From the NCBI GenBank assembly GCA_951640195.1, contig OX621166.1:1-64000 (forward strand): a DNA stretch of 64,000 nt. Reading direction: 5' to 3'. Source of the stretch: Porpolomopsis calyptriformis. Its lineage: Eukaryota > Basidiomycota > Agaricomycetes > Agaricales > Hygrophoraceae. Positions 15,661 through 61,984 of this stretch are shown here, in pieces (position 1 is the first letter of the stretch; the number at the start of each line of letters is the position of its first letter). The translations under genes were made by a program, and so were the position numbers. The notes beneath the pieces were generated by a model that was not told the DNA's origin, made no database searches, and saw nothing but the letters and a program-made list of their open reading frames with translations.

Positions 15661-15662
15661 TG

Positions 15663-18125: not shown

Positions 18126-18459
18126 TCAGTAACTTGATGGTGATTCCCATTCCCCCTGTTCACCGCAAGGAGACAGGTGCTGAATATCCGCTGATACTTG
18201 ATCATTATTGAGGTTGGAAGGGTGATGGCCACAGTGGAGTTGTGAACCACGCATAACGCTGGTAGGGCATAGGCAGGGCATCATCACAGTGAATGAAGCT
18301 AGCGTCGGGAGGTAATACTTGCCCGGTGGAGTGAGACATGAGCATCGCTGAATACATGACTATCCCTCGCATCCCGTCCCGGGAGAGATAATTGGACTGG
18401 AGGTCGGGCCATGCTGTAAGAGTCCTATGGCCGCATGCTTACGGTCTCGTTGCGACAGT

Positions 18460-18467
18460 TATAAAAG
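18460..18467 (+). promoter_or_regulatory. TATA box of the alpha-kinase gene
   Basis: TATAAAAG about 40 bases before the ATG at 18506. It argues against the upstream in-frame ATG at 18392, which lies before the box. Confidence 0.5.
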
Positions 18468-18505
18468 AACCCCCCATTCGAGCTACAATCACATTCAATC
18501 CAAAG

Positions 18506-32037: not shown

Positions 32038-32100
32038 CCCCTCATTTTTTCTCGACCCCAATTCTCCACTTTCTCCCTAAGCCACCACCCACCATCCATC

Positions 32101-33620: not shown

Positions 33621-34424
33621 TCAACCTGTATCCTGCCCCGTTCCACTCCCCTTCCTTCTTCGAAACTTCCTCCTACGTATCCGCCCAGATATAGATGGCC
33701 ATGGTACCAATGGTACCGATGGTTCTGGCAAAGTTGGCCTGAACGTGACATCAAGGATGCCCTTCGCGGTGACCAGTGGCATGATATCGCTGACCTCCAT
33801 CACAGACAGAGGGCCTAAAATGTGCACAGATTGAAGGGAAGGTCTCGAGGAAAGATATGCGTCGAGGAGGGCCCAATTGACTTTGATGCAGTTATCCCAG
33901 TTGGCCCGTGTAAGATCGAGAGTGAACTTGGTCAAATCTTCCATAGAACATCCAGCAAATATCCTCGAGATATCGATTAGGTTGACGTTACCCGGCTGTC
34001 TTAGTCGTAATCCAGAGAGGGTAACTTCCCTGAGCCACACGTTGTGGAAAAAGTTTAGGTGCGTGAGTTCGACGCAGTCATCTTCATGCGGGGTTAGCGA
34101 TAAAACCCAGACACATAGGAATAACCTGAAACACTGATAACCGGATGTATTGAATCCCAACCTGGTGACCCTCAGGTTGCTCCCAGCCCTCTTCAAATTT
34201 TGCTGAACCCAACCGCCGTGCCAATTCCTGATGGAGGTGAATTCAAGGAAACGAATCGGGTGTTGCGGCTTTGGCATTGGATCGACAAGCATGTATCGGG
34301 CCAGGAATGGAAACACAACGGAGGCAAAGTTCCTGTTTACTAGTGCCAGTGCGAGCAGATCTTGGGACGAGTTCTGAATGTAGGGGATAATTTTGAGCCA
34401 CAGATCTATGGGAAGGGAAATCAT
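33621..34424 (-). CDS. F-box-type protein, right copy
   Basis: 267 residues, starting MISLPIDLWLKIIPYIQ (ATG at 34424). It has the same architecture as the left copy, including LLALALVNRN, IDISRIFAGCSMEDLTKFTL and AYLSSRPSLQSVHILGPL. It keeps a longer basic tail (RIRRRKFRRRKG). The two proteins differ at perhaps a third of positions, so the duplication is not recent. A TATATA motif lies about 40 bases upstream. Confidence 0.7.
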   Translation of the reverse strand: MISLPIDLWLKIIPYIQNSSQDLLALALVNRNFASVVFPFLARYMLVDPMPKPQHPIRFLEFTSIRNWHGGWVQQNLKRAGSNLRVTRLGFNTSGYQCFRLFLCVWVLSLTPHEDDCVELTHLNFFHNVWLREVTLSGLRLRQPGNVNLIDISRIFAGCSMEDLTKFTLDLTRANWDNCIKVNWALLDAYLSSRPSLQSVHILGPLSVMEVSDIMPLVTAKGILDVTFRPTLPEPSVPLVPWPSISGRIRRRKFRRRKGSGTGQDTG

Positions 34425-34530
34425 GATGGATGATGGTGGTTTTGGGAGACTTTCGGCTGCTCTATATACTAAGTCGACCTCGACGCTTTGACTCACTCTC
34501 AACTAAAATCGATTATTCACGTGGCTAGGG

Positions 34531-35105: not shown

Positions 35106-36343
35106 GGGTCAGAGAGATCAAAACGATTTCAAACGGTTACGGCGAGAGGATGGAAATGCTGAGGTTGGGATCGAACGGTAAGGCTTTCATTAAAAAATCT
35201 GAATATCAGGCCCCTGTGTTGAATAATATGGTTATCAAGATTCGGCACGCAATCTCTCGGATGCAGTAGAGAAGCATGGATGGTGACCCTTGCCATCCCT
35301 CCCGTCTGTAGATTCCACCTTGTTCTCCCTTAGCCAACTTCCTCTTTACCTTCTTCTCAGGGTGGCCCTCGTACCCATTCTCACTCCCGCACTCTCTTTT
35401 CCTACATTTCATCTGCTCACGCACGTCGGATATTCCCTATGAATTGAATTTTCATTATGACCTTTTGTGTTGGTATCCAGATGACCACTCACCAAGGTGC
35501 AAACCATTCACCGCTTCTCCAACATCATCAAGGATGGCAGTCACGCTCCATTACAAAGTGAGAAATAAGTGATTCTGAGTCGTCTGAAGAAGCACAAAGA
35601 TGTCTTTCAGCCGTACTTTAATCTTATGTTGCTATACTAGGTGTACCCGAGGCCCTTTACCTCGGCATGTCGTAGATTGATGGCATTTAAAGTTTTCTTA
35701 GCAGGCAAGTATTGCGTTCCATAATACAGGCTATCGATAAGGTTGAAGACATTAGCAAACCTTTGCCAAAATGAGACTGTTGGAAGGAAGGGAAGGGAAA
35801 TCAACGAAAAACAGTAACTAAATCACTCAATCACCCCCTCACATCTTTTCAGTGATGAAAATTTCTAGTTACTGAAAAACAATACCACAGAGTAGGTTTG
35901 TAGGTGCGGATCATTAGCAAATTGGAAAACTTACATTTAGCTAAGGCGGCAGCTGACTAGTCTACATTAAATTGACTTCACCATGCCCAAAGTACATCTA
36001 ATCATTGCATGATCACCACGAATCAGTGCCAGTTGATCTGTTTATCAGTAAATTTCAGTTACGAATGCTGTAATACAATGAGAAAGTCGCTACTATTCAA
36101 ACGAGAAAAAGAGACCTTCGGTGATAAAATTTCATCGATTTTAGTTCCAATGGAGATGACCTCAACATCTCACTTGATTTTATGGTTCATCCTTCTTTTA
36201 TAATTACACTCACGATTGTCCAAACTGCCTCTTTTGAAGTGCGCAGCCAAGCATAAGTTATGCTGGGCTCGATTTGAACACCTACCAAATATAGGATTAA
36301 CAAACATTCACAAGTTCCAAAAGCACTACCGAATCCGAATCCA
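35106..36343. other. Intergenic, with dispersed repeat copy 2 at 35635-35740
   Basis: The repeat matches 20640-20760 in the same orientation (CCTTTACCTCGGCATGTC, CATTTAAAGTTTTCTTAGCA). A small minus-strand frame at 35206-35424 has no support. The rest is AT-rich and unremarkable. Confidence 0.5.
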
Positions 36344-37778
36344 ATGGCAAATCTCGATTTTATTCTCAACGATACCCATAGATGGCAGGATGGCATCTCA
36401 GAGGTTCAACCAAGCAGCTGGCTGTGTCTATTTGAATTGGAGAATTCAAAGAACTACCTGTTCAAACCGATGGGTTCCGATACAAAGATACGCTGGAAGT
36501 ATTTTCCATTGGAATTCATTGCCTTTAATATCATCACGAATCAGTCTCGCCACTTTTCCTTGCCATTCATGCTGTGCCAACAGGTTGCGTTTCTTGATCT
36601 TCAATATTGGGCTAGCCTGGTTTCTGGAGATAAATCGATGTCGCGCTATTTAGAGCTGCTAAGGGATGACCTCCTTGAAGAATTCTTCGCAATGGAACCC
36701 CCTTCCAGCTTTAATGAACAACCTTGGAGTACCCGGCCTTGGGCCGTTCGAACGATGCACTCCTTTGGCCACTCGAAGCCTGACCGTGACGCTTATCTCA
36801 CCACATGCAGAGAACAGGGCTGGGAGAGTTATATGCATGGCGACCCATTGGAATATCATACGTGATGAATCGCTCCCAAAGTCCTGATGGTTTATACTAC
36901 GTTCTATAATAGGATGGACAGATATTTTCAACAAATATAAAAAACAAAATACCTGGATGAATTCGGGTCATCATATTATAGACAGCCTTGCAAGCGCACT
37001 GAACAAAGCGAGGGAACATATCTCTGTGGGCCCTTCAAACGTTTTACTCTCTGCAGCCGACCTTCTCGACAAAGGCGACACCTGTTTGGCACAACAAGCT
37101 GGTGTGTGAATGGGATCCATCGCTCTCATGCTACATCAGATATCCTGACTAAACGATCAGCCACAGTCAAGATCCCTGAGTTCGATATAAGTATCGACCC
37201 AACACATGTGGATAAATCACCATTGGATGTCGCATTGGCACATTCTACCTCAAAAGCTGGTACGTGAATGGGATCTATGGGTCTCATGCCACACCAGATA
37301 TCAAATATCTAGACTGATGATGATGATCAGCCACAGAGGAGATTTCTTCTTCATTCGCAGGCGAAATCGAACAGAGGCTTAGGGCTCCGTTGCCAACATG
37401 CATCGTGCAGCCAAACAAGTTAGTTCATTCAGCCGCTCGATAACTTAGCATCCTTTGACTACTGTATAGCAGACAATCATCTACACGTGTGGCCATGGTA
37501 CGAACCTCGGAACCTCCAAGTAGGCAGGCTACTCAACGTGAATTTATTTATTGCGTATTGATTTATTAACTTATTCTTATTCTTATTTCTCTCCCACTTC
37601 AACAGCACAGGTTGAACGAGGGAAAAACTACAAACAAAACAAGTGGAAGCGGAATAAAAAGAAGAAAATGAAGGCAGCTCTATTACGAGAGACAGAGGCT
37701 GAGTTAGCTGCGCGCAACCCACCCAGCCAACCAATGCGACCCAACCATTCAACCACACGGGTGAACCGAGGGAGATAA
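36344..37778 (+). CDS. Member 1 of an unnamed family (WAVR/HSFGHS domain)
   Basis: Exon 1 (36344-36863) encodes about 173 residues with an ordered domain: SWLCLFELENSKNYLF, FLDLQYWASLV, SRYLELLRDDLL, then WAVRTMHSFGHSKPDRDAY and GWESYMHGDPLEYHT. The same layout is seen at 40818-40282 and 42429-41782. Later exons (36986-37104, about 37165-37252 and 37331-37420) are short. Two of the introns between them are near-copies, so an exon-intron unit was duplicated. The last exon is very basic (NKWKRNKKKKMKAAL) and ends at 37778. Function unknown. Confidence 0.5.
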
Positions 37779-38111: not shown

Positions 38112-40818
38112 CTATGGCGGTGGAAGAAAAAGTTCGGTGGATAAACATTTTTCTTCACTGAGCGCCATCCAATGCTCTCCACTGACGAGTACTTCTGACT
38201 CCATAGCTGTCAGGCTGATTCCTGCCCTTTCTAGTATCGCCTTGATCTGTTTCTGGGCCTCGTTGATTTCTCCTTCTTCCTCCTGAAAAAGGACATCCCA
38301 CTCGGTCATCGGAAGGTCTGGCCTTTTCTGCTCACCCGGCAAAAGGTACTCATTCGATTTGAGAATCATTCTGGCCAGCGCCAAGAATGGCCGTCGATAT
38401 ATTTCTGGAAAGCTAGCTTTTAAACAAAAATGAGGGGATATCATTCATTCACGTGCTCACTTCGACTTTTGGCGACATGTGGAAGCACTAAAACCATGCG
38501 AGAAAGCAACCTTGAGACGTGGTGATTTGCATTTGTTGAAAAATGACCATGCATATGGTCGAAGTCCCGCGATTGTTCAGTGAGGTGAAGCGTCTCATAG
38601 GTATAAAAGTGACCTCCCGAACAATAGCTTGGCGTGGGGGTGTATACGGCATGCCAAATGCCAGGAGGCATAATTCTGACACATAGAATCAATATATGAG
38701 CATGAGTAATCAATTTTTAGAGCGTTAATAATATAAAAACTTACAGAATCTCCCCTGCAGAAAGAAACGTCGTGAAAATCTGAGCATGTTGATTCAGTTG
38801 GTGTAGTTGACTGAAGCAAATATCCTTGTGCAGGCTGCGCAACTTGTTCCGGGAGTTGTGACTTTTTGTGTATCTAGGTCGAATAATGGCCCAAATTTTT
38901 ATCCCGGCGTGCGCATAGATCCAGGTACACAAGCCGTTAGCATCCTTGTGGGGGAATGTTACGAAGCCAGCATGCGTCAGCAGGTTCCACTGCATCATTT
39001 GCCAGGTGCACATCCGAATAACCTGTGGCCCTGGAAGGACTAGTTCTTGTCGAGTATTCGGCATCTTGTGATGCTTCGACTTGTCCTTTGGAGGGTGCTT
39101 CCAAAACTTCGCGAATGATTCATGTTTTGTGAGCTGGAATGCGAGTGCTTCGTCACTTATTCGACTGTTAAGGTTACTTGTTGAAATAAGCCAATGTACA
39201 AGCTCTCAGCACTCTTACCATATAATAGAGGGGGCGGCATTTCTCAGTGAAGGGGCATCCAGGATATTTCCACAGATGTCTACACCCTCAGATGCCTCGA
39301 TAAACTCCCCCAGGGAAGAGTGGCTGTGGATGATGCCATCTGACTCCTTCTTGGACCTACCGACTGCACGCAATCTTGCGTCTATACAATATTAAACCAC
39401 AGTAATCGTAGAGATGGATTTTACGTACCATGCCACTGAACTGGCTGGCTTAATGGACCCCTTGCTGCCTCGATCTCCTCCTTACAAAACGTCTCCGGAC
39501 CTTCAAGATGTTGACCCTGTAATATAATGCATCGCTGATTAGCGAGATGGAGTCGCACGGCTTCATCGATGGCATGAAGTGGTTGGGAAGGTTCTCTTGG
39601 TGGGATAACGACATAGTTAGTTTCATCCAAGTCCCAGTTGTTTATCGAATGGGTTGCAGATGAACCATCAGGTGATTTGGCAAGCACCTCAACTAATTTA
39701 GCGTCCTTAACAAAGCTTCAGTTAGCTGATCAAGAACGAGCACAAAATGATGGACGGACTGCATTTTGATGGCCCGGAACGTGAACCCATGGAAGTACGG
39801 TTTGCGACCCATTGGCCCATTGAATCGAGGATGCGTCCTGGGGAAAGTTCACTCCCCTCAACGAAGTAAAGTAGTCGTGCTTATTCTGGGTGAGGGGTGC
39901 TGATGTTATGCGTTATCTTCTTCTTCATAAGGATGATGCGATGCGAATAACTTCACATACCAGATATCGTAGCTGGTTGATGTTTTTTTCGACTCGTGGG
40001 TTCTTCATCATCGGACAAAGATCGTTTTTGGGGAAGACTAGCGGCGCTCACTCCTTGGCCCAGTTCATTGGGATGGTTGATGAATCCGATCGCAATAAGA
40101 TATTGCAGCGAGTCAGATTTCTCTTGAGCGGCATCGCTTGAAGTGCCAGCCGTCGCTGGAGAGTCTGACCAAGTGTCGGTCGCAAGCATCTCGTTCCCAA
40201 ATGACACGACCCTGGATATGTGACTCTTCCAATCTTCAGTGAGCGATTTAATATCAGCTGTTGCACCCAATATTGATAAGATTACTCACCATATTGAGTC
40301 GGATCGTCATCTTCATAAGGCAGACGGTTCTCGTTTTTGCAACGATCGGCATAGAGTTGGCGACCTGTTTGAGAGTGTCCAAATGAATGGTAGACTCTGA
40401 CGGCCCATTGCTTCACCGTCTTCAATCGCAATGATGCTTGAGTGAGCAGTTTACGATCCTCAAACCACAACTCATGCTGCACGGCCAAACAGAGGTTCTG
40501 GAGGTACTGTTTGATTCGTCCTGCATGTCGTACCTGGTTCTCTGCTTCAAGGCAGCTGTGGCGATGACTCAGGTCAAGGAAAGCAAGGATAGAGCGGTAA
40601 TGGATGTGTATTTCGCGAGATCGCAGTGAGTTGTTGTGGTAGAAAAAGAGCTTGAATGTTGTTTGGGTTGATAATTCTGAGAAGCGCCAGAAATTGGACG
40701 GTTTATTCAAGAGGGTGGATGTCTTGGCTGGCCATAAAGCCTCATCATCAAATAGCTCTCCTTCTTTGTTGGCTATCGGTTGGGTGGCCATGATAATGAA
40801 CGTATGTGTGGGGGTCAC
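38112..40818 (-). CDS. JmjC-type oxygenase, probably fused to the WAVR/HSFGHS domain
   Basis: The first exon (40818-40282) is family member 2: AFLDLSHRHSCLEAE, WAVRVYHSFGHSQTGRQLY, DDPTQYG. It splices in frame to ADIKSLTEDWKSHISRVVSF and DYFTSLRGVNFPQDASSIQW. A plausible join then reaches DAKLVEVLAKSPDGSS, which has no ATG of its own. The JmjC core follows: WNLLTHAGFVTFPHKDANGL (Fe ligands H and D), IYAHAGIKIWAIIRP, FTTFLSAGEIL, then MPPGIWHAVYTPTPSYC (distal H) and YETLHLTEQSRD. The last exon is acidic and ends at 38112. JmjC enzymes usually demethylate histones or hydroxylate proteins. The fusion join near 39800-39700 is inference; a shorter protein ending at 39730 is the alternative. Confidence 0.6.
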
Positions 40819-41439
40819 GTGGGTATTTATTCGATTAAAGAGTTTGAAAGCTACAAAGACGATATGATTCTATCCAGGACTTGGATTAGATCATGTGCTA
40901 TAAATGAATGCCATATTCTCAAGTTTGAGGGTGACAAAGAAGCCCTGACGTTTTCTTTGCCATTTGATTCATTCCACTACTCCTTCATCTGGTTGAAGGA
41001 GTTATAAATATTACGGTGAAAACCATCATCCTCATTATAATTTATTGAAGTGAAGGATACAGATTGTGGAGGTGTGAGGTATACCGCTAAGGAAAGGTGG
41101 TTACAATGATCTGTAAGTCCCATGGTAACTTGCAGCTGCTGTTCGCATGTAAAAAAACAAAAAACATCAAGAAACTTTCATTATCATCTTCGTCTTCATC
41201 TTCGTCTTCATCTTCCTTTCGAATCGTGGAGGAATGGTAACACTGTTATCGGAGAATTGAGGCTGCCCCCCCTCTATCTCAGCTTGGATCTTGGATCAGT
41301 ATCAGCTTGGTAAATTCATCTGAATGAAATGCACCATGGGATCCCACTGGCTGATCATTATCAGCTGAAAGATTCATTGCTAGCTGTGAAATACTAAATG
41401 ATCACAATGAGTGAATGTGAACCATGTGTGTCTTACAGA
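40819..41439. other. Intergenic
   Basis: A plus-strand frame to 41007 is unsupported. 41180-41220 is a TCTTCG/TCATCT simple repeat. Nothing else recognised. Confidence 0.4.
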
Positions 41440-42429
41440 CCTACCCAAGATCAGCCTCATGGGTAGGTGATGATGTATTTACACCGTATCCATGGGAATC
41501 TGGGTTGATATTCTTCTCCTGAACATCGTTAGCCCACTGTTGGGCTGTATTTTCATTGATGCCAGTAGCAAAGAGAAGCATATAGCATTAGAGCATCCCT
41601 AAGCCAAGATGTTGATTTCATTTACTCTCACCGTTAACTCCAAGGAACAAAGCAAGCGCACAGGTCACAGAGTGCCCTCTGTCAAACCGGGGAGGTTTCG
41701 TGTGTGATTCTAGCTGCTGGAGACATAGCTGGAACCCCCTGCTTAGCCAGTTTGTATGGGTTTCGAATAAAGTATGCCATTCTATGTAGTTTGAATTGGA
41801 AAGCATGATGAGATAAGGGAAGCTTGTGTATGCAGAAGCTGCCTCTTACGGTATAAGGTTGGGTCTTCATGGGTGTATGGAGTCCACCCATTTGCCTTGC
41901 ATTTCTGAAGGTACTCCCGTCTGCCGAAGAAAGAGTGGCCAAAAAAGTGATTCATTCTAACTGCCCACGGTATTGTCGTTTTAGGTTGGAAGCTAGAGCC
42001 AAAGCTGCCATGGTTTTGTGATAACTCAACCCAGAGATCAGACCTGAGCCTTTCCAGGTAACGTGTGATACGATTTGCACTGGGATGAGGGTTAGCAACA
42101 TTCGCCCAGTATTCAAGGTCAAGAAGAGCGATCTGAAGTGTGGTCGATAGAGGGAGAGTGTAGTGTCGATGTTTGTTTCTGCTTTTGCAAAAAGCATGTA
42201 AAATGATCTGCTTTTGCTGGTTCAATTTGAGGGTCAAGTCAGGTTGTGTGAAAGGGTGGCTGATTTCCTCAAAGAGCCAGATGGTGTCGCTTGGTGGAAC
42301 AGGAGAGCGATCGTTCGACCACCGATTATTATCCGCATCCAAGCATCGAGAAGAACACATCATTTGGTTCCAAGGGTAGTTACATTTGGGGGTGGGTGGA
42401 TAACTGCATGAAAACAAGATAATCAGCAT
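41440..42429 (-). CDS. Member 3 of the unnamed WAVR/HSFGHS family
   Basis: The minus-strand main exon (42429-41835) reads DTIWLFEEISHPFTQPDL, HYTLPLSTTLQIALLDLEYW, RITRYLERLRSDLWVELSQ, IPWAVRMNHFFGHSFFGRRE and GWTPYTHEDPTLYR, ending at a GTAAGA donor. A later exon near 41560-41450 (ENTAQQWANDVQEKNINPD) ends THEADLG with a stop. The true start codon is unclear; the first in-frame ATG near 42373 (MMCSSRCLDADNN) is likely. No catalytic pattern was noticed. Confidence 0.5.
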
Positions 42430-42897
42430 AAAATTTATCTAGATGTGGTGAAAAAATAAGCATTCATTCAATCGCATGCGTATAGCCATTGTGGTGCTGG
42501 AAGTAGTTTCGTGTGTGAGTCACAGCTCTTGATCACTACTTAGGCTCCTCACACATCACTTCATAGCACATCACTTCATAAGTACATAACAGCTAGTTGA
42601 TATTCACGCATACACAGACAAGATAGCTGGGAGTTAATCAATACAGTATCAAAGCAACTTGATATGTTATGCGTGACATCACATTTGCATACCAAAATGG
42701 GATGGGAGTGGCGCATGTGAACTTGCTAATTTACACCTGCACACAGCTCAACATGTCTACACAGGTTTAGCACAAATCGTATGTAGTAGACTTATATAGT
42801 AACTAGCTTGGAATGCAGCAATACAAGTTGATTAATATTTGTGGAAAGTTTGATGCGACATGCATGCAGCGTAATAGATGCTAATTCAGTAATTTTA
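42430..42897. other. Intergenic; possible left boundary zone of the terminal element
   Basis: AT-rich with short internal repeats (ACATCACTTCATA). I looked here for an inverted copy of the element's right end (TCAGGGACCC) and did not find one. Confidence 0.4.
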
Positions 42898-44048
42898 TCA
42901 AGACCATAACCTCCATGATGGTCTGTAGTTAAGCTTTCTGTCTCCATAGAGAACCTGAACCTGAGTGTGGTTGCTTTCGAGCATTTCACCTGATGCAATC
43001 ATCTCCTCCATCCTTTTCAATGCCAACCGTGCAAACTCTTCACAGTCCATGTCTATCCAAGCGTCGAATATACCAGCCCACGTAGCTGTGTTTGTAAAGG
43101 TATTATTGAGATATATAACTTGAGGCGATGCTTGTAAACTGGATTTGGGGGAATTTTTTGCTAAGATTCTAGCGGACTGCTTGATAAAGTCAGTAGTACC
43201 CTTCACTTTCAAGCTAGTGCCAACCACAAGGAGAAGATCTAGTTGGCGACTGGGGGTGGTAGTTAACCCAAGATCATTTTGCTGCACGTTTGCTATTTCT
43301 TCTCCTCGAGGATGTGGTTCTCCGTAAAGAATGATATTGGGTCGGAGTCGAGGCACAGTCGTTCTGCGTTTGCCCTGCTCTACCCTCTTTTCCATATTGA
43401 TTTGACATTCAGTGCATTCTGGTAGTTGGCCCTCTTTCAAAGAGGGGTAGTATGGTTCGAGGATAAAAATGGAGGAGCAGCCAGGGCATCGTAGTTCCTC
43501 TAGGGATCCATGCAATGGAATGCATCGGGCTGGTCCATCACTGGGGTGAATTTCTGAGGACATATGTAACCCAGCCTTGAGCTCCAAACCATCGATATTT
43601 TGAGTGTAAACACGGAGTAACACTCCTTGGAGGTCTAGAGCACGAAGGAAATGGTGGAAGGCAGTGGGTTGTGCGATCGCCGCTTTCTCAGCAAGGGTGG
43701 CAATGAGCTGACAATGCAGTGATTGTTGCTTTTGGGTCTAGAACATTAACTTGGTCAACTAATCCTCACTTGAACATATATTTCTCACTACGAGGGATGA
43801 GCTAGTAAGCAGATCAGTCAGGTTGACTCCGGTAAATCCAGATAGTGCGTTGCCAGTATATAAGCTGTCTGGTCCTCTAAAACATGGAATACCTGCAGCC
43901 ACGGATATTCCTGCTCCTAGAGAGTAGGTAAGTATTTGAATGAAACATGATGATGGGTCGATTTACCACAGAGCACGACGATTCTCTTTGCTTTCAGTAT
44001 TCCATCCATTAGATCTGTTGCACTTTGTTTTATAGTGGAGGGGAACAT
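42898..44048 (-). CDS. Sirtuin (Sir2-family NAD-dependent deacylase)
   Basis: Three exons (44048-43967, 43916-43789, 43737-42898) join with frame kept, giving about 350 residues. Motifs: the NAD-binding GAGISVAAGIPCFRGPDSLY; VYTQNIDGLE; catalytic histidine in PLHGSLEELRC; zinc ligands CPGC and CTEC; RPNIILYGEP; VVGTSLKVKG; VIYLNN. All hallmark residues of an active sirtuin are present. The start MFPSTIKQSATDLMDGILKA fits the family helix before the Rossmann fold. It lies tail-to-head behind the BAH-PHD gene, 72 bp from its stop. Likely nuclear, deacylating histones or other proteins; target unknown. Confidence 0.88.
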
Positions 44049-44120
44049 AATAGCTGAGTTTTTAGCAGTAACACGGTGAAGGATAGTAGGTATTAGATAA
44101 GCTAGAAGAATGGTAAGGTA

Positions 44121-45486
44121 TCAAATAAGCAAATCTGAGCTACACCGAGGGCAAGTATAGTATGTTTGGTCTGTAACGACTAATGGCTCATAAGAGTCTG
44201 TGTTATCTATGCCGAATTCTGCCTCAAGCCAGTTTTCCCAGTCAGTGTCTATCATATTTAACCGAGACTCCTCAATGAGGTGAGCAGCTATCCATCCAGA
44301 GGCTTGGACGACACTGCGTTCCTGTGAAGAAAGCAACTTTCTAGCCTTGTTCACGATCCTAATATTTCCGGCTGTAAAATAAGTGAGACCTCCCCTAGCT
44401 GTGGGTTGGAAAGCAACTTGAAGTATAATTTTTGGGGTGTCGGCAAACTTCTCTATAGCATAGAGATTGTTAAGATACTGCTGCTGGGTAATGTTGGCAG
44501 GGGTTCCTAGGCAAGTAAGATGGGACCATCTTTTGCAGGACCAGCAGTAGCATTGTTCCTCTGTATCGGGGGACCAAAGTGAATAACAGTGAGTTGCGCC
44601 ACATATTTCTGGCTCGCCCTACCACCCAATAGATTACTACAGGGTATATGTTTAGTTCAATGAATGCACCTTCAATGCCTGCCTATGCCCATCCCAGAAG
44701 TATCTAATAGAAATTTTAGTATAATAGATGGGTTGGTATTATCGTCAAGCTTACCGCATGTAATACGCGGTTACTGGAGGTTGATCTTCAATCTGATTTT
44801 TAATAATAACAATGTCGATTGTATCTACAGTTTAATTTTCAGTTCAGTTCAGTTCATTCTTTTATATCTGCTTCTCGATATAATAACCCTCACCTTCCAA
44901 GGCTTGCGCATCAATGATATCTGTAGAATCAGAGCCACACAGCTCTTGCTTTCCAAATGTGTTTATATACCTGTCAAGAGTAAGAAGAACATAGAGTGAC
45001 AGGAGAAGGAGTAGGTTTTGAGATGCAACCTTTTAGTATCAGCCTTAACATCACTTCTCTCCAACAACTGCTTGGCTGTATACATCCATGAAACCTTAGC
45101 AAGATACTTGTTCTAAAGCACATTGTCAACATTGGGTAGGGTAGCTTGAGCAGGTGTATCACCTTAGTAGTTTTTCTTATTTGTAGGATCAAACCTTTCC
45201 AGTAGTCGTCCATTATAATATTATTTTCTTCCTTTGCATGGAGGCCAAGGTGACGGATGAGGCAGCTGTGTTTGAGGGAAATAATCAAATGACTACTATT
45301 CAAGCATTATCGATAAACACTTACAAGTCATTCTTAACGAATTTGCAAGGAGAGCCTATAAAGTTTTGATTCGGAACAAATAGAACAAGGCATAGGTGAT
45401 ATCTCACCATCATTTGGATTAGGAACCTCGAGGTATTCTACGACTTTTGCAGATTTCCATTGTTTTTCCTCGGTTGTAGGTGCCAT
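44121..45486 (-). CDS. BAH-PHD chromatin-reader protein
   Basis: ATG at 45486 (MAPTTEEKQWKSAKVVEYLE). Exons splice to a BAH domain: DDYWKGLILQIRKTTK, then YLAKVSWMYTAKQLLERSD, then DSTDIIDAQALEG. After a linker exon (DIVIIKNQIEDQPPVTAYYM) comes a PHD-type cluster: CGATHC, CYCWSCKRWSHLTCLG and finally YYTCPRC. More than 100 residues are inserted before the last cysteine pair, which is unusual. BAH-PHD proteins such as Neurospora EPR-1 read repressive histone marks. The gene shares a 129-bp region with the divergent 45616 gene. No stops were seen in the joined frame. Confidence 0.8.
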
Positions 45487-45615
45487 AATAATAAATCTAC
45501 GGACCAATGTTGATTATTCGTATTATATTCCCACAGCTATATATATGTCACGTGAATGTAGATACACTTTGTCTCGACTATTGCACAAACATAGCTCTCG
45601 ATCTTAACCTCCAAT
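45487..45615. promoter_or_regulatory. Bidirectional promoter between BAH-PHD and the large gene
   Basis: The only 129 bp between two divergent start codons. Contains TATATATA near 45538 and CACGTG near 45549, the E-box core. Confidence 0.55.
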
Positions 45616-48600
45616 ATGGCAAACCAGGCAAATGAAGGTGCAGATTATGACAGTGATATAGATAGGATCATAGCTATGTCCTCACTAGCCAAGGTAAGCC
45701 TATCCCTAGTAGTTATGTATCTAATTCGATTCACACAATTAAATCATTACGAGGCTAATAAAACCATAATAAACCAGGAAGGGGATTCGACTTCTAGTGG
45801 TTCAGATGATAGTGATATACGTAATATCCTGAATATGCCTTGTGCAGAGAAGATGCCAATGCCAATACCGATGCTAGGAGAAAAACATATGCCTTCCAAA
45901 AAACATATATTAATCAACAAAAAGCCAGTATACTCAGTAAGTGTATATCTGTTTTCAAGGTTAAAGTGCTCACATTATTACAGACAACGTTAATTAGCCT
46001 AAATCATCTTAACATCCAGAATTCGGATCAGCAATATATATCGATACCTCCATTGGCTCCCTTAGGTCCCCAGCCAGGTCCTTCAAGGGTCCAAAACGCA
46101 ATAAGTAGAAAGGATAATGACGCTGTATGTCTCAATTAACCTATGACAATAATAACTTACATTTATTTATTTTCCAGGTGGCGAAAGCATGGTATGTATT
46201 TTAAGAGAAATCATAAGATACTTGCGTATTAATACTGGTTAGGTTTAGTGATTATAGCTCTCCTTCAGAGCCTTCGGTGGATATTAGAAGGAACAACTCG
46301 CGATTTGAAACCAGACACCGGTGAATAAATCTATCATTCGAAATGTTAGGTTAAATACTAAACTTTTAGAAGCTCAACAAGCCGATCATCATCGCCAGCT
46401 AGCAATAACGGATCAGATTTCATTGGATCCAGTGAAAGTGACAGTGCTCATTCTCATTTACTAGCAAAAAATGCCATTCAATTGAATCTACCACGATCTG
46501 AGCAAGAGCTTTTTATAGGTATGTTCTTATATTATTGGTAGTGATTAGACTCATTAAGGATATTAGACACGAAGCTAGCAGATCCAAGGATATGGGCTTC
46601 AGCTTGTCAATCATTGGGATCTGCTAAGCCTGGAAACCACCTGGATCACGCGGTCATAGAAATTTACCTTTTGAAATCATGGTATATGTCCATTCAACCC
46701 CAGATGCCATCTCAGAGATATTCCTACTATCTAGACTCGGAAACGGTGAGCAGGGTAATAAGAGAAGAAGAAGACATCCTGTCTACCGAAATCCATAAAA
46801 CTCTCCTTCTTCCACCTCACGTTGCTATCCCGAAAAAGCCTGTGTTATTTTTCCCTCCACTATCATGGCAATCTTCTGCAACCCAAAGGCTAGCTTTATT
46901 TGATTACCAGCAGGAGAAGGTTCTTGTTTTTAGCCATGGAGCTCCACTCGAAACCAATATGTACTCAGATTGGACGGAGTGGAATGGCAACTACTATTGG
47001 AGGGCTATTGCTAATGTGTTTGGGTGGATCCTGGGTAGTGAGTTGGATGAGCGAGGTCCCCAAGTAATCGAACCGAATTGGAATACGGTGAAAATCTCGT
47101 TTCTATACAGAAGAAGCATATTCATATACATATTTCAACAGAGTGAGGCCGACACTGGTTCCTGGATGGCATCGCTTTGCCAAGAAATCTTTGATAATGG
47201 TTGGATGTATTCCACAGACATTAACCAACACCCACTTGCACCCAAATTGCAATGTGTTCATGCGATGCGAGAGAGAATATTTCTCACTGCGCTTCAAACT
47301 GTACAAAAATCATATGACTTCTGGAACAAGACTCAGACCCTGCTTCGGTATTCCATGGAACCCAATTCTGAGGTTGTGAATGATATGAAGGCTGGGCTTT
47401 TAAAATTCAAGCGTTTCGAGGTAATAGCACTTGCGCTTGCAACTGCTCGTATGAAGTGTGAGTATTATCTCATTCCGATTACCTGTGATAATCAATCTAA
47501 AGAGGCTACCTATATTAATCAACTAGGCCATCTTCTGGATAGTCACGACAAGGATGGCAATGCCAGCAATGACGACAACAATCACAATGATGATGACAAT
47601 GACAATGACAATGATGACAACGATGATGATTCCATTGTAATCAACCTACCACCTCAGCCTTCCAGAAGGTCTCTACCTGAAATCCAACTTCCAGAGGTTG
47701 AGCTAAATGGGAATGGGGGTGAAGAAGCATTAGCAACAAGCGTTGATGAGCGGCCTTTTGATGACTACGAATCAGCTATGTTGGTTTGCTCTGAGGATCA
47801 AGCTGATATCATTCCAAACACGTGGACCTTTGACACCAATGGAATGCTTGTATTGGGCAAGCACTGGAGTATCTGGAGGGATAGAGGCTATAGGTTGCAG
47901 GCCGATTTTTTCTCTATGTTCAATAACCAGGAACCGGTTCTCCTCAATGACCACCTTCTTCCACACTGGGATTCAAGTGATCAAGCAAGTGGATGTTTAC
48001 CATCATCTCCAGTTGCATACCCATCCTCGTTATCTTCTCATTCTTCTGAGGTGCTGAATTCCCTACCAGCTATGGACAACCCAGATGTGACTGTGATGGG
48101 TGCTCAGGATATGTTGGATGAGGCGGGAGGGGTGGAAGGGACATCAGAGAGCCAGGGTGTGTTTGTAAAAGGTAAAGCACGCAACAACAAATTCATCTAC
48201 TTCGACTTGGAGAAGGATAGAGTAAACCTGGACGATGAAGAAGTGTCAGTGTCGGTGGATATCGACAGCGTCATATGGGTCACGCATAAACCACAGTTCA
48301 TTGGTCCAATCAATATTCACCTTCTTCCACTGTTAGACGACAAACCTCCATTCTCTATCAACAATCATGTCTATGTCCAGGTTCTACAACCACCTACCAC
48401 TCGAAATCCTAGGCAGAGGTCTAAAAGGTATCCACTTAGTGCCTTGCCACATACCCATTTCGGGCAGATGGGTCAAGGATCAGGCCAATTTAACACCTAC
48501 GTCTTCTTCCCTCGTATGATTAGGAAAGACCCAGGAACGCATAGAATGACTACTCTGATGCCAAGGGAGGTACAGGAGTTGTGGTTCTCACAAGTGATCA

Positions 48601-50983
48601 TGCCTGCTCTGCCAGTGGTTTTAGCCAACTACACCGGAATTATGGAGTATCTTCCTACAAGCGTCAGTAATCTCCAATGGAAAATAGGGACAAGACGTAC
48701 GACCAAGACCATTCCCCTCACACCTGAAGCATTTTCTTCCATGCGAACCACTCTCTGCGACATCATAAATAACCAGCCCGATCTCCTAGGCCGATTCGGG
48801 TCCTTTTTCTTTGTTGTAGATGCTCGAGGTATCAAACTGCTCTCTAAGCAGCACCACCCAACCGAGAATATATATCAGGCACTCTGTTCGATGATTCCTA
48901 ACATGGACTGGGATTATATGAAGGACCGATCGCATGGAGAACTCTTGCTTGATCTTGGGATTTCATACCATCCTCCTTCTAGGGAGGATCAGGAGCCATT
49001 GGTAGGGCTGTGGAGGTTAGATAGGATCGACGACTCGTACGACCTTATGGGGATGAAAAAAGGAATGACCCATTATACTGCCATGTTTGGAGCTTATGGA
49101 GGGAGACAGGCTGAAACCAAGTTGAAGAAAAGTCGGCTTGTACACCTTTGCTTCCGATCCAGCTACAACCTTTGCTTTGAGGTGGTGCGACTTCCTGGCC
49201 AAACGAACTACCTATGTGATGACTGTGATGCAGTCAAGACAAATGACCGATTCATGACTAGCTGTGATCACTGGAAAAAGCTGTTTCAATCTTCTCAAAT
49301 CCAGTCATTCGGCGTTAGAGAAGAAGTTAGAGGGAGTGGGTTAGCCATTATAAAGCTTCTTGATGTAGCATCTGAAAAGGTAAGCAGCGAAATAACTGCA
49401 AACTAGAAATGTCTAATGATTGCCAGGCACAAGACTATATGTCGTCTGACCCTATCATTTGGATCAAGTCGAGCCTCTTTTTCAAGTTGTTGGCAAGAAG
49501 GCTAGCAGAGTTTCAAAACGTCCAACTACACCTTTCACGAAATCGACCAAGCAACTATGGGATGATGGCTACGCTTATCATCCACCTGATTAAGCACACC
49601 ATGGTCACGCCAAGGATAAAGCACACATTCTTGAATGATGTGTTGCGAGACCTTCGTTTCAGTTCGATAATGTGGAGGTTCGGAATGTTCTTTCTTCACG
49701 ACCTCAAGTTGAAGAAAGGAGTGCTATCTCTAAGAGAACTACCGGAGGAGGATCCAGCTGAGGTTATCCAAGCGTATGGACAGTCCTTGAAGAAGCCACA
49801 GGCAACTCAAGCCAACCAGCCATATCACCTTATTCAAATGTATCAGCAAGATGCGTGCCCTTGGGGTCCTGATCCATCTTGGTCAAGAATTCAGAAACTG
49901 TTGGAAACCGAGCCAGAGATTTTCCTTAGGGAATGGAGGTTGGATGATGACTGGGAAGCTCCTGAACTGCTTTACACAAAGCTGTTGTTTGTTGAGTTCA
50001 CGCATCAGCTGTGGCTAAGTCTGGCAGAGCAGTTTGCATCAGCAGGTGTTTTACCCAAGCCAACCACAGTTCAGGAAGCAATGGAGACTTGGACGGTACC
50101 TGCGATTCAGCATATCATAGGCATTGACCATTGCCGATTCCTTCCTTCGAGCTGTGGCCTTAAAGGAAAGCTTCCTTTGAGTCACTCCCATGATCTATCA
50201 TTTTCAGCATGTCGGGCAACCTTCTTCCCTGAACAAACTATCCAGATCCCAGAGAATTCAGTCTGGAAACCATACACCCAGCCTGGAGGATATATCTCCA
50301 CTTACCACCAATATCTTGTGGATTGGGATATGGATGAAGGTGATCAGCTCTGCCGTGAATTGGACAATATATTTGGCCAGTTACAATGCCTTCCTGTAGG
50401 TGGCCTATCGAATAAAAAGGGGAAACAAGTCATATGGGGGATGAAATCAGGCAAGATCAACTTTATTTCGAATTCAAAGTTCTATCGGATTGAAGAAATT
50501 GGGAAAGAGGTGGCTGCGCGTCCACGAACTCAGGTCCTAAAAAGGCCTCATGCTTCAAAGAATATACTTCAGAGACGACTAGATGAAACCTTGGGGAGAT
50601 CGATAAAACCACCTATTCGGAGCCGAAAGTCTGCCAAAATCTACCAAAAACGAAAGCCTCCTGTGAGACAGAAAGCAGACAACAATCCTTCAGGTTCAGA
50701 GAGCGGGAAAGAGCAACAGGTTAGGGTTACTCGCTCAAAGGCCAAGGCTGCCCAGAAAGACGAGGGAAGAAAGGGGGTGAGTGGTGTGCGGATAACTCGG
50801 TCAAGAATGAACGCTGCTAGGAAAGATGCGGAGAGAGAAGATTCAGGTTCAGGAAGACATATAGTAGGTAGATCTCAGTCAAGAGTCAAGGCTGCTAGGG
50901 AACGGGCAGATTTAGAGTCTGATTCCGATTCCGATTCATTAGAGTACACAGATGAGCCAGGATCAGAGCAATCTAGTAGCTAA
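45616..50983 (+). CDS. Very large protein of unknown family, candidate core of a mobile element
   Basis: Short 5' exons (from MANQANEGADYDSDIDRIIA at 45616) carry a Ser/Asp-rich tail region. Long exons run from about 46565 to 49379 and from 49427 to 50983, joined by a 47-bp intron (DVASEK to AQDYMSSDP). In all about 1,600 residues. Visible features: LLLPPHVAIPKKPVLFFPPL, WNGNYYWRAIANVFGWILG, FQQSEADTGSWMASLCQEIF, an Asp/Asn run near 47570-47630, PALPVVLANYTGIMEYLP, FFFVVDARGIKLLSKQ, a possible metal site LCDDCDAV...SCDHW, and three basic C-terminal repeats (TRSKAKAAQK, TRSRMNAARK, SQSRVKAARE). No domain is recognised. The intact frame and the transposon-like repeated tail immediately after it suggest function in the element. 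Confidence 0.75.
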
Positions 50984-51039
50984 TGTATCGATTTGAAGAT
51001 TATATATTCACAGGTCTATTCTACCTATATGTGTTACAC

Positions 51040-53237
51040 TGCTCATTGTGGTACCCCAATCAGTCTGCCCATGGGGATGTGGTTATTCTGGGATGTTATC
51101 ACACTAATGCTATTGATTGAACATAACATGCTGATGGTTAGAGAGCTCGGTGAGAAGTTGAAGGTATAACCTCTGATACCTCTTGCATGCTAATTACGGT
51201 ACCCCAATTATTCCACACATGAGGATTGGACTACTCCTGATGTTTGTAGCACCAATGCTATTGATTGAACATAAAATCCTGATGCTTAGAGGGCTCTCTG
51301 ATAAGTTGAAGGTATACCCTCCCATACCTGTTGTATACTTATTGCGGCACCCTAGTTAATCCACACATGATGATTGAACTATTCCTAACCTTTGTAATAC
51401 TCATGCTATTGATTGAACATAAAATCCTGATACTCGGAGAGCTCTGTGATAAGTTGAAGGTATATCATCCGATACTTCTTACATACTATACCCCAATCAT
51501 TCCACACATGAGGATTAGACTACTCCTGACCTTTGTAACACTAATGCTGTTGATTTAACATAAAATCCCGATGCTTAGAGAGCTCTCTGATAAGTTAAAG
51601 GTATACCACCCCATGATATCTTATATACTTATTGCGGCACCCTAGTCAATCCATACACGAGGATTAGACTATTCCCAATGTTTATAACACTAATGCTATT
51701 GATTGAACATGAAATCCTGATGCTCAGAGAGCTCTGTGATAACTTGAAGGTATACCCCCCCCTACCTCCTGTATACTTCTTGCGGCACCCCAGTCTATCT
51801 ACACATGATGATTGGACTATTCCCAATGTTTGTAACACAGGTGCTATTGATTGAACATGAAATCCTGATGCTCAGAGAGCTCTGTGATAAGTTAGAGATA
51901 TACCCCCCTATACCCCTTATATAGCTTATTGCAGTGCCTCATTCTGTCCATATATTGTCATTCCGAGCATCTGTAACACTGGTGCTATTGATTGAACATG
52001 AAATTGTGATGTTTAAAGAGGTCTGTGATAAGTTGGAGATATACTCCCCCATACCCCTTATATAGCTTATTGCAGTACCTCATTCTGACCATATATTGTT
52101 ATTCCGAGCATCTATAACACTGGTGCTATTGATTGAACATGAAATTGTGATGTTTAAAGAGGTCTGTGATAAGTTGGAGATATACTCCCTCATACCCTTT
52201 ATATACCTTATTGGAGTGCCTTATTCTACCCATATATTGTTATTCCGAGCATCTATGACACTAGTGCTATTGATTGAACATGAAATTATGATGTTTAAAG
52301 ATGTCTGTAATAAGTTGGAGATATACCCCCCCATACCCCTTATATAACTGATTGCGGTACCCCAAATGGTCTATAACTTAGGATTTTTGTATTCCCCACC
52401 TCTATGACACTGGGGCTATTGATTGAATATAAAACCCAGGTTTTTAAAGACCTCTGTAATAAGTTGGAGATATACCCCCCCATACCCCTTATATAGCTTA
52501 TTGCGGTACCTTATTCTGCCTATACATCAGGATTTTGTTATTCCGAGCCTCTATGACACTACTGCTATCGATTGAACATGAAATCCTGATTTTTAAAGAG
52601 CTCTGTGATAAGTTGGAGATATACCCCCCCATACCCCTTATATAGCTTATTGCGGTACCCCAAATGGTCTATAAATCAGGATTTTTGTATTCCCAGTATC
52701 TGTGACACTAGTGCTATCGATTGAACATAAAATCCTGATTTTTAAAGAGCTCTGTGATAAGTTGGAGATATACCCCCCCATACCCCTTATATCACTGATT
52801 GCGGTACCCCAAATGGTCCATAAATCGGGATTTTTGTATTCCCCACCTCTATGACACTGGGGCTATCAATTGAATATGAAACCCCGATTTTTAGAGCAGT
52901 CTATAGCTACTTATACTTATGCCTCCTCCTAAAACCTTACTATCTTCCACCACGACATACCAAATGCTCTAAAAATCGGAATTTTCTGTGGGCCCACCAT
53001 TAGTTCACTGTGCCTATCGAATGGACATGAAATTGTGATTTATAGAGTGCAATACAATAGCTGGGCTGCATAATGGTATAAATGGAGTGTTTTACATATA
53101 TCTCAAGAATGGGACCGCCGATTTTTTTAATTTATGGCTTAAACTGATTGTATTGGGATGCCCTAACGATCCCCCAAAGAATTTTGAATTAATTTTGTGC
53201 CAGCATTTTGGTCATTTTGTTGATAATGGGTCCCTGA
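51040..53237 (+). repeat. Hairpin-bearing tandem array and right terminus (copy B)
   Basis: Begins just after the large gene. About 13 units of roughly 110-150 bp share CTATTGATTGAACAT and GATAAGTTNNAGNTATA. Early units (51040-51900) differ from later ones, so the array is old at the left and homogenised at the right. Within later units, AATCAGGATTTTT is followed about 50 bases on by its reverse complement AAAATCCTGATTT. 52017-53237 repeats at 1-1072 and both end at CCCTGA. Confidence 0.88.
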
Positions 53238-53290
53238 TGATAGTTTATTCCAAATATAGTCATCACGTGCCCACCTTCACATCAGTATGG

Positions 53291-53934
53291 TGCGCGAAAC
53301 GAGCATACTCGTTTCGCGCGTGTTATAAATTAATACAATTAATTATTATGCGACAAGTATGCTCCTTTCGGACATGTTATTTTATTATTATTACCATCTG
53401 TATTTTGCGCGAAACGAGCATGCTTGTTTCGCGCGTGTTATGAATTAATACAATTAATTATGATGCGTGAAACAAGCATGCTTCTTTCGGGCATGTTATT
53501 TTATTATTATTACCATCTTTATTTTGCGCGAAACGAGCATGCTCGTTTCGCGCATGGTATTTTATTATTATTATTCAAGTTATTATTGCTAATATTATTA
53601 TTGACTAACTTGATCATTATTTTTCGCAAAACGAGCATGCTATTACTATTATGTATTATGTTATTGATTATTATTATTATTATTATTACTATTAATTATT
53701 ATTATGCGCAGAACGAGCATACTCGTTTTGCGCATGTTATTTATTATTATTATTACTATTAGTTATTATGTGCGAAACAAGCATGCTCCTTTCGGGCATC
53801 TTATTTTACAATTATTATTACAATTATGCATCATTATACACAAAACGAGTATACTCGTTTTGCGCATGTTATTTATTTATTATTTATTAGTATTAATTAT
53901 TATGCACAGAACGAGCATGCTCCTTTCGCGCATG
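53291..53934. repeat. Array of about ten palindromes in AT-rich DNA
   Basis: Copies near 53291, 53348, 53406, 53463, 53525, 53621, 53704, 53769, 53835 and 53902, 55-95 bases apart, separated by TTATTATTA runs. The half-site is GCGCGAAACGAGCA; the copy at 53527-53554 is a perfect 28-bp palindrome. Alternate copies carry CTCCTTTCGGGC on the right arm and are imperfect. It lies directly outside the element end at 53237. No coding sense. Confidence 0.88.
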
Positions 53935-53949
53935 TTAATTTATTATTAG

Positions 53950-54345
53950 TATTATTGTTGTTCAAGTTAATATTGTTAGTATTATTTACTAACTTGATCA
54001 ATTGAGCTTAGTATTATTTACACTCTCTCCAACAAATCTGCTATACTTGCGCTACAAATATACACTTCTGGCACACAAGCTATCTTACAAAGCTGGAAAT
54101 TCACAGCCCTGACCCTAACTGATTTGCAAAATATGTCTAACAATATATGGTAAATATATCTAGATAGTTATTTCCTAGGGGGACAGGGTATTCGAGTGGA
54201 AAAGGCCAGGCGACCCATGGGCCGCCTGACACACCTTCAACCTAGACTAAAAAGATTGTAAAATCAAGAACTCAGGAATGGGTAACACCACCTTTCTGAA
54301 AATATTAGGGTACATTACTCAGATGCAGAGGTATGTTCTATGAAT
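53950..54345. other. Intergenic
   Basis: No gene or repeat recognised apart from a short echo of 53575-53610 (TTCAAGTTA, CTAACTTGATCA) at 53960-54000. Confidence 0.4.
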
Positions 54346-59976: not shown

Positions 59977-60972
59977 TTACTGACTTTGTTGTTGGAGCAG
60001 CCCCTTCAGATATGCCAACTCTTCCTTGTGCTGCTCCTCGCGTCTTGCTACCGCTTCCTCATGCTGCCGCTCCGCCTCCTCGCGTCTTGCTACCGCTTCC
60101 TCATGCTGCCGCTCCGCCTCCTCGCGTCTCGCTACCTCTTCCTGGAGCTGCCGCTCACGTCTTGCCAACTCTTCCTGGTGCTGCTGATCCACCCGTCCCT
60201 CTGCCTCGAGGGTCTTCTTACAAAACCTTTCCCACTCCGCGCGGTACTTTTCAAGGACCTCCGTAACATCGGGAGGTGATTCTGTGACCTGCACAGACTT
60301 GAACCTTCCTGCCTTCACATTATTCCCATCATCAACAACGTAGCCACCAAACTCGATCCGCAACATCTCACAAACTGCCCCTGCAAACAAATAACACTGG
60401 GAGGTGAAGAGAACGTAATGGGGCCAGTGGTCATGCAGGACCATCAGCATAACCATCAGTTGCGCAACCGACATCGCCTTGGACAGTCGGATGGTCCTGA
60501 GTCGTATGTGATCTTTAGCTAGGTAGTCATCGAATGAATATTTATCCCGGGCTTTTGAGCCAGGAAGTAAGAGTGTATCCTTTGCTTTTATGGTATTTTC
60601 GGACAAGGAAGCAAGCGAGGTGGATGAGCTGGAGGGTGAGCAGTTTCCGACTGGGCCGTCTCCTCCTGCTCGTTCAGCGTGAAAAAAAGTCTTAGCGATG
60701 GGTGATCCATCAATGTCGACGATGTCAATGTCGAGGAGGACTGATTCGTGGAAGACAGTAGAAGACTGCTTGAAGTGAGTCGCCTGGCGGACGAAAGCTG
60801 AGTTAGCCAAGTCGAGGTTTTCCTTGCTCTTTACAAATTGGCTGAGCACCGAGACGGGGAGTGACTGATCCTCCCCAGGCAAGAGCAAGTGGTCGGTGGA
60901 CATTGGATTGTTCGCTACGAAAAACTTTGAGAATACAGAACGGACAGTGGATAGAAATGATTTGGGAGCCAT
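59977..60972 (-). CDS. Unknown Agaricomycete protein with C-terminal coiled coil
   Basis: 331 residues in one exon, starting MAPKSFLSTVRSVFSKFF. A conserved-looking middle, MSVAQLMVMLMVLHDHWPHY followed by VLFTSQCYLFAGAVCEMLRI, is a pattern I associate with a multi-copy mushroom family of unknown function. The C-terminus is a charged coiled coil with three near-identical repeats (AERQHEEAVARREE). No stop or frameshift, unlike every neighbour from 57.5 to 64 kb, so it probably inserted or survived separately. Confidence 0.6.
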   Translation of the reverse strand: MAPKSFLSTVRSVFSKFFVANNPMSTDHLLLPGEDQSLPVSVLSQFVKSKENLDLANSAFVRQATHFKQSSTVFHESVLLDIDIVDIDGSPIAKTFFHAERAGGDGPVGNCSPSSSSTSLASLSENTIKAKDTLLLPGSKARDKYSFDDYLAKDHIRLRTIRLSKAMSVAQLMVMLMVLHDHWPHYVLFTSQCYLFAGAVCEMLRIEFGGYVVDDGNNVKAGRFKSVQVTESPPDVTEVLEKYRAEWERFCKKTLEAEGRVDQQHQEELARRERQLQEEVARREEAERQHEEAVARREEAERQHEEAVARREEQHKEELAYLKGLLQQQSQ

Positions 60973-61084: not shown

Positions 61085-61965
61085 CTTCAACCAGTTATTC
61101 AGAGCTCTTCGCTTCTCGCGGCGCGAATGTCGTCGTTAGCGACGTCAGTGCTGCCGCTGCCCAGAAAGTTGTTGACGAGGTCATCAAGTGTTTGTCAATC
61201 CATGTCCTGCAATATCCGACAAGTTAATTCCATTCTACAGCCGGCAGCAAGGCGGTCGCAAATACGTCCTCGGTGACAGACGGGGGTGCTGTTATACAGT
61301 CTGCACTTGATGCGTTCGGCGCGGTGACCATCCTGATCAACAATGCCAGTAGTTTACAAGACAAGGGGTGAGTTTTTCTCAATGAAACTCGTCTGGGCGT
61401 AATTTATTATAACCCCGGTGTTATCGTCATCGTTTTTTGTGACGGACTCACTCGCAAACATTTATGAGGTCTCATCGGATTCACCAAAACCGTGGCGCGA
61501 GAAGGCGTCAAATACGGAATCAAGAAGATTCGCAACTTGTCAGGGACGCTAAAGGGGTCCACATCGATCCAACTACACCGAGCGAGATGTAATCCTGTAT
61601 GACATAGGAATTGGTGCGGCAGCAAAGGAACTCCAATGGACGTATGAGGGACACGATGAATCCAGTGCCCTTCCCACTTTTGGAGTTATCCCTCAGTTCC
61701 TTGCCAGCGCTGGCATCCCGTTGGGCTGGCTCCCCAACTTCAACCCAGTTAGTCAACTGCTAATACCTTGCTTCCGACACCGACTCTGCTTCAGGCGAAA
61801 TTACTCCATGGAGAACAGTACTTGGCTATGAGAGGCAGTATTCCCACCAGCGGCGAGTTGGTGAACGAGGTTCGGTTAGTCTTGACTCGTGAAGTACGAG
61901 ACGTGAACGGGCCAGTGTCGGATTAATGGAAGTTCTCGATAAAGGCAAAGCGGCGGCTGTCACGC
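61085..61965 (+). pseudogene. FOX2 (peroxisomal multifunctional beta-oxidation enzyme) fragments
   Basis: Order: the first dehydrogenase domain start (ELFASRGANVVVSDVSAAAA; AGSKAVANTSSVTDGGAV; FGAVTILINNA), then a jump to GLIGFTKTVAREGVKYGIK, then the hydratase domain (YTERDVILYDIGIGAAAKEL, ALPTFGVIPQFLASAG, LLHGEQYLAMRGSIPTSGE) and MEVLDKGKAAAVTL. Large internal parts, including the second dehydrogenase domain, are deleted. Introns are retained. Confidence 0.7.
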
Positions 61966-61984
61966 TCAGTAAAAACGCAAAGTC

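Follow-up and report, generated by a model that had tools for sequence, protein, structure and literature searches.

To our knowledge, the elements known to build chromosome ends use a reverse transcriptase (RT). The Y' elements of yeast are subtelomeric, multi-copy and partly identical to one another. As set out in a review, the Drosophila elements HeT-A, TART and TAHRE are retrotransposons of 6–12 kb that form the telomere, and the terminons of the Athena elements of bdelloid rotifers always contain an RT (PMC5537684). In Agaricomycetes, TET/JBP-type genes are known as cargo of KDZ, Plavaka and other transposons, where they likely act against methylation; the words JmjC, sirtuin and BAH are absent from the main text of that paper (PMC12730594). 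Here we describe a repeated element found at the start of contig OX621166.1 of the basidiomycete Porpolomopsis calyptriformis (positions 1 to 64,000; "the window" denotes this whole stretch of 64,000 nucleotides). The genome comprises 33.5 Mb in 17 contigs, which are cited by labels (C1–C16 and the like), and the window is the left end of C4 (C4:1–64000). Our best explanation, to which we give an even chance of being right as a whole, is that this is a chromosome-end element of at least 52 kb that adds its 3' end to chromosome ends; that addition occurs terminally is well supported.

The initial annotation had proposed an undescribed mobile element at 42898–53237. The behaviour of a mobile element was borne out, in that the last 22 bp of the right end (...GGGTCCCTGA) have 87 exact occurrences genome-wide and a 22-mer inside the element's giant gene has 67, mostly in one polarity, and we recognised no description of the element in the literature searched. 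The boundary, in contrast, has to be moved, as the repeated unit starts at or before position 1073 and is at least 52 kb long. In particular, the window holds one unit (1073–53237, + strand) that is truncated on its telomere (5') side, preceded by the tail of a telomere-ward neighbour copy (1–1072, + strand), with which contig C4 starts and whose array and terminus are as in 52158–53237; the junction at 1072/1073 recurs twice on C1. Leftward of 1073, the copy on C9 extends for about 131 bp more, and the longest copy seen, on C16, for about 1.1 kb more, after which telomere repeats follow. At its other end the unit finishes in a conserved 3' terminal segment (52896–53237, + strand) that ends in CCCTGA and of which there are 40 near-identical full copies among those scored. 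Protein searches returned 75 candidate copies of the giant gene; the 48 that were scored are each 99–100% identical over the large exon, which is without a stop in 45 of them. The TET/JBP-like exon of the unit (see below) is present at 38 genomic places. When the unit map was compared with the position of the next giant gene inward, 11 of the 19 pairable junctions fell within 30 bp of the predicted distance, six deviated by 648–681 bp and two by 428 and 1236 bp, and the gene map within the units of this genome is kept. (The steps of 648–681 bp may correspond to the gain or loss of three units of a 220-bp tandem repeat that lies inside the element, with 7.8 copies at 15646–17350.)

Copies share one exact inner 3' end and lie mostly head to tail with that end towards the centromere. 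On contigs C1–C14 (28 arms), to which the counts of polarity were restricted, the array end of the giant gene points away from the nearer contig end in 56 of 61 giants, and 67 of 80 element 3' ends have the same polarity, leaving 5 and 13 exceptions, respectively. Moreover, a contig end is no more than 400 kb away for 59 of these 61 giants, against an expectation of 34%. A giant is borne by 22 of the 28 arms and an exact 3' end by 23, or by 24 if the left contig end of C13, which starts with a cut copy of the terminus, is counted. Many contigs stop inside the element, as judged from the fact that 600-mers from 21 of 33 contig ends match window positions 1073–53237. Both TTAGG and TTAGGG units make up the telomere repeat (a pattern of TTAGGG only finds no match because the two are mixed), which is present at 6 of the 33 contig ends fetched. 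Two contig ends have the repeats immediately adjoining a truncated copy: on C6 the copy is interrupted within its JmjC-like gene (window position 38685) and on C7 within its sirtuin gene (43149). Outside a truncated copy on C12 there is a segment of less than 11 kb, with telomere-like repeats at about 8.3 kb in the segment; from one sample, viewed by eye with no profile search, we take this segment to be RecQ/TLH-like. Regular arrays also occur: six giants stand at an exact spacing of 29,310 bp at C5:26528–179758, where one junction that was read is cut at window position 23916, and we read this array as one unit amplified by recombination. Likewise, four 3' ends stand exactly 49,281 bp apart at C16:17723–165587, on a contig of 219 kb that ends in telomere repeats.

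On the telomere side, copies are truncated at many places and are followed by the 3' end of the next copy or, at two contig ends, by telomere repeats. We located 18 such truncation positions, at window positions 944, 1016, 1073, 1198, 2596, 3860, 3966, 5159, 8664, 9286, 9305, 13924, 19020, 19584, 23916, 28068, 28172 and 29270. What lies downstream of the fixed 3' end is either the interior of another copy of the element or other DNA, and none of the junction flanks that were read starts with telomere repeats. Of the 87 exact ends, 47 junctions were compared, of which 43 are distinct. The base that follows CCCTGA (+1) is A or T in all 43 (24 T, 19 A), an outcome with a probability of about 1e-12 by window composition if the junctions are independent, and the base at +2 is G in 24. 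A or T also stands at +1 in 15 of 15 further ends, eight of which share one flank. For 18 targets, that is, 19 less the window's own junction, the uninterrupted target could be mapped; its −1 base is A in every case and its −2 base is G in 14, the dinucleotides being GA (14), AA (3) and TA (1). (The C8 junction, at 53656, has one mismatch near the joint.) That each joint has A or T at +1 points to a preference in cutting. One acceptor, an AT-rich, palindrome-rich subtelomeric tract at 53238–54122, has received 3' ends at three different points, on C4 (53238), C8 (about 53657) and C6 (about 53835), and in between, C6 has a 57-bp stub left by an earlier copy. This tract holds repeated palindromes of about 29 bp and is a possible fragile site.

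We propose that the element attaches by its 3' end where a chromosome has been nicked, has broken or has eroded, most often at GA|(A/T), and that the remainder of the element, as far as the terminus of the donor chromosome, would then serve as the recipient's new end. Both cuts, at CTGA| and at the target, would be made by the giant protein, possibly a nuclease with a new fold, which would also make the join; copying by replication would then proceed outward to the donor's terminus. Only joins onto the centromere-bearing piece would survive, which would account for the polarity, and recombination then multiplies the units, as with the six units on C5 and the four ends on C16. The TET/JBP-like, JmjC-like, sirtuin and BAH-PHD-like genes, in turn, would allow the element to be expressed despite the methylated chromatin of subtelomeres. 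A one-ended DNA process would explain why a 5' end is missing, why introns are retained and why copies vary in length and are polar. A larger proposal, which we put forward tentatively and consider rather doubtful, is that the element may represent a new class of mobile DNA with a single defined terminus, whose outer end is the chromosome end, which has no need of an RT, which caps broken or eroded chromosomes through a one-sided join made by a new family of giant proteins and which brings its own chromatin enzymes and readers. An Agaricomycete-type element of at least 52 kb, present on most chromosome ends beside normal telomere repeats, could be a second route of chromosome-end repair. It would also link DNA demethylation, histone marks and end fusion within a single selfish element, and would provide a role for a large family of fungal proteins without known function.

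Among the other explanations, the one that survives best is terminal retrotransposition, whereby RNA of the element would be reverse transcribed onto the 3' end of the chromosome, as in HeT-A and the Athena terminons; the UGA at the end of the RNA would pair with a TC 3' overhang, giving GA at the joint. Such a process would leave the same anatomy, namely polar head-to-tail arrays, a constant 3' end, 5' truncations and telomere repeats on truncated copies, and the predominance of GA at the targets (14 of 18, against AA at 3 and TA at 1) would fit the proposed pairing. Terminons, moreover, reach 40 kb and have extra genes (PMC5537684). However, Pfam scans of 38 of the 40 window open reading frames (ORFs) of at least 150 aa, together with 20 shorter ORFs, revealed no RT, transposase or Helitron domain, and of 820 RVT_1 candidates in the genome 150 were scored, none of these lying in C4:1–53237, a stretch that stops short of the element's true 5' end. 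In addition, introns are retained in genes on both strands of a unit longer than 52 kb, and pairing alone does not account for the A or T found at +1 in all 43 joints. Retrotransposition is unlikely in our judgement, although it retains appreciable weight, and we favour a one-ended mechanism that copies DNA.

A second possibility is that the element spreads passively among subtelomeres by ordinary recombination and break-induced replication, in the manner of yeast Y' elements. Such events certainly contribute, as the exact spacings on C5 (29,310 bp) and C16 (49,281 bp), the junctions that are shared (L084/L085/W1072 and L103/L104) and the near identity of the copies indicate. Homologous exchange, however, does not give 43 different junctions with the same last element base and A or T next to it, and the junction flanks that were read start without telomere repeats. 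As an account of the element, we consider passive spread improbable.

Element 3' ends are also found in outward-facing pairs, on C1, C4, C5, C7, C9, C13 and C15, and in six of these pairs the ends are about 52 kb apart. We entertained the idea that a pair might be a complete transposon with terminal inverted repeats (TIRs) and rejected it; the nine pairs checked share 0–1 bp, with no target-site duplication, and the left flank is one repeated sequence, identical in 8 of the 9. (In two of the nine, on C4 and C9, the right flank is the reverse complement of the left.) The TET/JBP-like gene lies 31.2–31.9 kb from one end in the six pairs of 52 kb, and 31.8 kb from the end in the array unit. In our reading, each outward-facing pair consists of two elements meeting 5' to 5', as fused chromosome ends would leave them, although misassembly could also have produced such pairs. 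The second giant gene that would be expected in the middle of a pair was not seen with the exact 22-mer; the 75 candidate giants as against 67 exact 22-mers leave room for such a gene without proving it. On C4 itself, a probe from window positions 60200–60800 recurs in inverted orientation at C4:141197–141797, and 141197 is exactly the position expected if the sequence is mirrored around the end pair 75088/126909. Our reading of this mirror copy is end fusion, then breakage, then capping by a new copy; here, too, misassembly is possible. Two interstitial end pairs, at C9:505605–558261 and C1:3543808–3596457, have mirrored outer flanks, which may reflect segmental duplication or an old fusion. 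Within the unit, an imperfect inverted repeat (32089–34436), with an F-box-like ORF in each arm that scores under the Pfam cut-off, is centred at about 33265, some 20 kb from the 3' end and near where the 5'-to-5' pairs seem to switch partner. That the tandem and inverted copies, above all the outward-facing pairs, are misjoined reads is very improbable overall: contigs do tend to stop inside the element (the 21 of 33 contig-end 600-mers noted above), and towards the right ends of C9 and C13 there are copies that face the other way, but the junctions differ in position and sequence from contig to contig and yet fit one target rule, the distances to the next giant fit, and telomere repeats cap truncated copies.

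The giant gene (45616–50983, + strand), whose start codon was read at 45616, has large open exons at 46545–49380 and 49427–50983; modelling found no open path through its 5' exons. The initial annotation was right that its product has no recognisable transposase domain, in that Pfam detects no domain in the giant protein and no transposase domain (KDZ, Plavaka, CACTA or others) either in the scanned ORFs or in six homologues. The protein has 180 homologues, among them ones in the Boletales genera Suillus, Pisolithus and Phlebopus, and belongs to an Agaricomycete family. Conservation across species is good, the first six homologues showing 43–66% identity over the large exon. Searches of PDB sequences with profiles of the giant protein gave four chance-level matches and then none, an AlphaFold model built with 7 sequences reached a pLDDT of only 31.5, and no significant fold match was obtained; apart from RepDE, the VIA-align rows pair with a helical stretch or with proteins that are unrelated. 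Viral relatives were not confirmed in IMG/VR, and none was significant in BFVD. In three homologues (P0107, P0110 and P0118) we take the N-terminal part to be a Ulp1-like protease, on the basis of a motif with no profile match, and in the window copy this part is degenerate.

The genes around the giant gene largely agree with what had been annotated. The sirtuin gene (44048–42898, − strand) has three exons that are open and spliceable and matches PF02146 (SIR2; E=1e-30), and the gap of 129 bp between divergent start codons is present at 45487–45615. A gene is also present where a BAH-PHD gene had been called (45486 to about 44121, − strand), whereas its name is likely rather than proven: the PHD scores 14–17 bits against a Pfam cut-off of 24, Pfam detects no BAH domain, and the PDB rows with a BAH-PHD architecture are those of the plant protein EBS, with E values of no better than 0.026–0.034. 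What had been called a hairpin array stands as an array next to the fixed terminus (51041–52895, + strand), with 13 units by motif of 141–149 bp (period 149/141 bp) and a 14-base core motif that has 19 matches in the window as against 1.0 expected. The hairpins fared less well; RNA folding of six stretches gave z scores of −2.1 to +1.6, which is weak, a search of the window against Rfam gave no match, and we reject an RNA function for the array. Overlooked at first were the head-to-tail stacking and two further genes of chromatin type, namely JmjC-like exons (38460–39165, − strand; PF02373 at 24.2 bits, cut-off 24) and a TET/JBP-like dioxygenase exon (20817–21569, − strand; PF12851, E=6.7e-6, 25.9 bits against a cut-off of 34.9), for which a PDB search returned nothing relevant.

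Other cargo of the unit comprises a copia-type gag remnant (3423–3887, − strand; PF14223, E=1.7e-18), an alpha-kinase-like ORF (18392–19081, + strand; PF02816, E=2.7e-8) and a TPR match by Pfam. Gene pieces at 4397–7205 (− strand) have no Pfam match and include what we take, by eye and from motifs, to be a P-loop and a PD-(D/E)xK-like stretch. The ORFs at 36278–36865, 40282–40869 and 41782–42438, near the JmjC-like and sirtuin genes, appear by eye to be related (WAVR...FGHS). Beyond the element, the adjoining subtelomeric segment holds SAT and FAS-type domains at 61927–63910, from a fatty-acid or polyketide synthase gene.

Comparison of 30 copies of 45045–50903 revealed 112 variants, of which 74 are CpG transitions at 314 CpG positions, 18 are the same change at 2228 other G/C positions and 20 are other variants. 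Resident copies thus carry methylation-type CpG decay. Silent, changing and stop variants number 33, 51 and 3, which agrees with the neutral expectation of 0.315, 0.615 and 0.071 (p=0.20 for silent). Drift among resident copies together with conservation of the lineage is what one would expect if the element is mobile.

How, then, does the element compare with known systems? The element's 3' CTGA fits the CTRR motif of Helitrons (note that the 22-mer search fixes these letters by construction), and joining next to A and a one-ended DNA process would be further likenesses. A Helitron should, however, insert between A and T, and here A stands at −1 in all 18 targets, but the base at +1 is divided between T (24) and A (19) among the 43 joints, A|A being nearly as frequent as A|T; the polarity relative to chromosome ends also differs, and none of the 35 matches to Helitron_like_N (PF14214) in the genome lies in C4:1–53237, which covers the part of the element seen. 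The fungal subtelomeric RecQ elements are likewise subtelomeric, multi-copy and partly identical (PMC7473861). They and Y' differ from the present element, which has no helicase in the scanned ORFs, no telomere repeats between units at the joints read, and a fixed joint with a target rule. The TET/JBP transposons of Agaricomycetes (PMC12730594) and the element have in common that they are fungal mobile DNA with a TET/JBP-type gene, whereas the element forms arrays at chromosome ends, shows no target-site duplication, and yielded neither a KDZ nor a Plavaka transposase in its scanned ORFs. Membership in the class of HeT-A and the terminons is unproven for want of an RT, which the review places in every terminon and which was not found in the part of the element scanned; Athena, moreover, has telomeric repeats at its 3' end, where the joint here is CCCTGA|A/T, CCCTGA being one base off CCCTAA (PMC5537684). 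HeT-A, TART and TAHRE are far smaller than the at least 52 kb of this element, in whose scanned ORFs no RT was seen and beside which TTAGG/TTAGGG repeats are present. Nevertheless, Athena terminons are telomeric, often 5' truncated, up to 40 kb long and endowed with extra genes, and the Drosophila elements form arrays in one direction, head to tail, with the 3' end centromere-ward and the 5' side eroded, all according to the same review (PMC5537684). Here, too, there are polar head-to-tail arrays with a constant 3' end (apart from 5 of 61 giants and 13 of 80 ends) and variable 5' truncations at 18 points, some of them telomere-capped (C6, C7). As with HeT-A and the rotifer terminons, this anatomy is the hallmark of self-addition to the ends of chromosomes.

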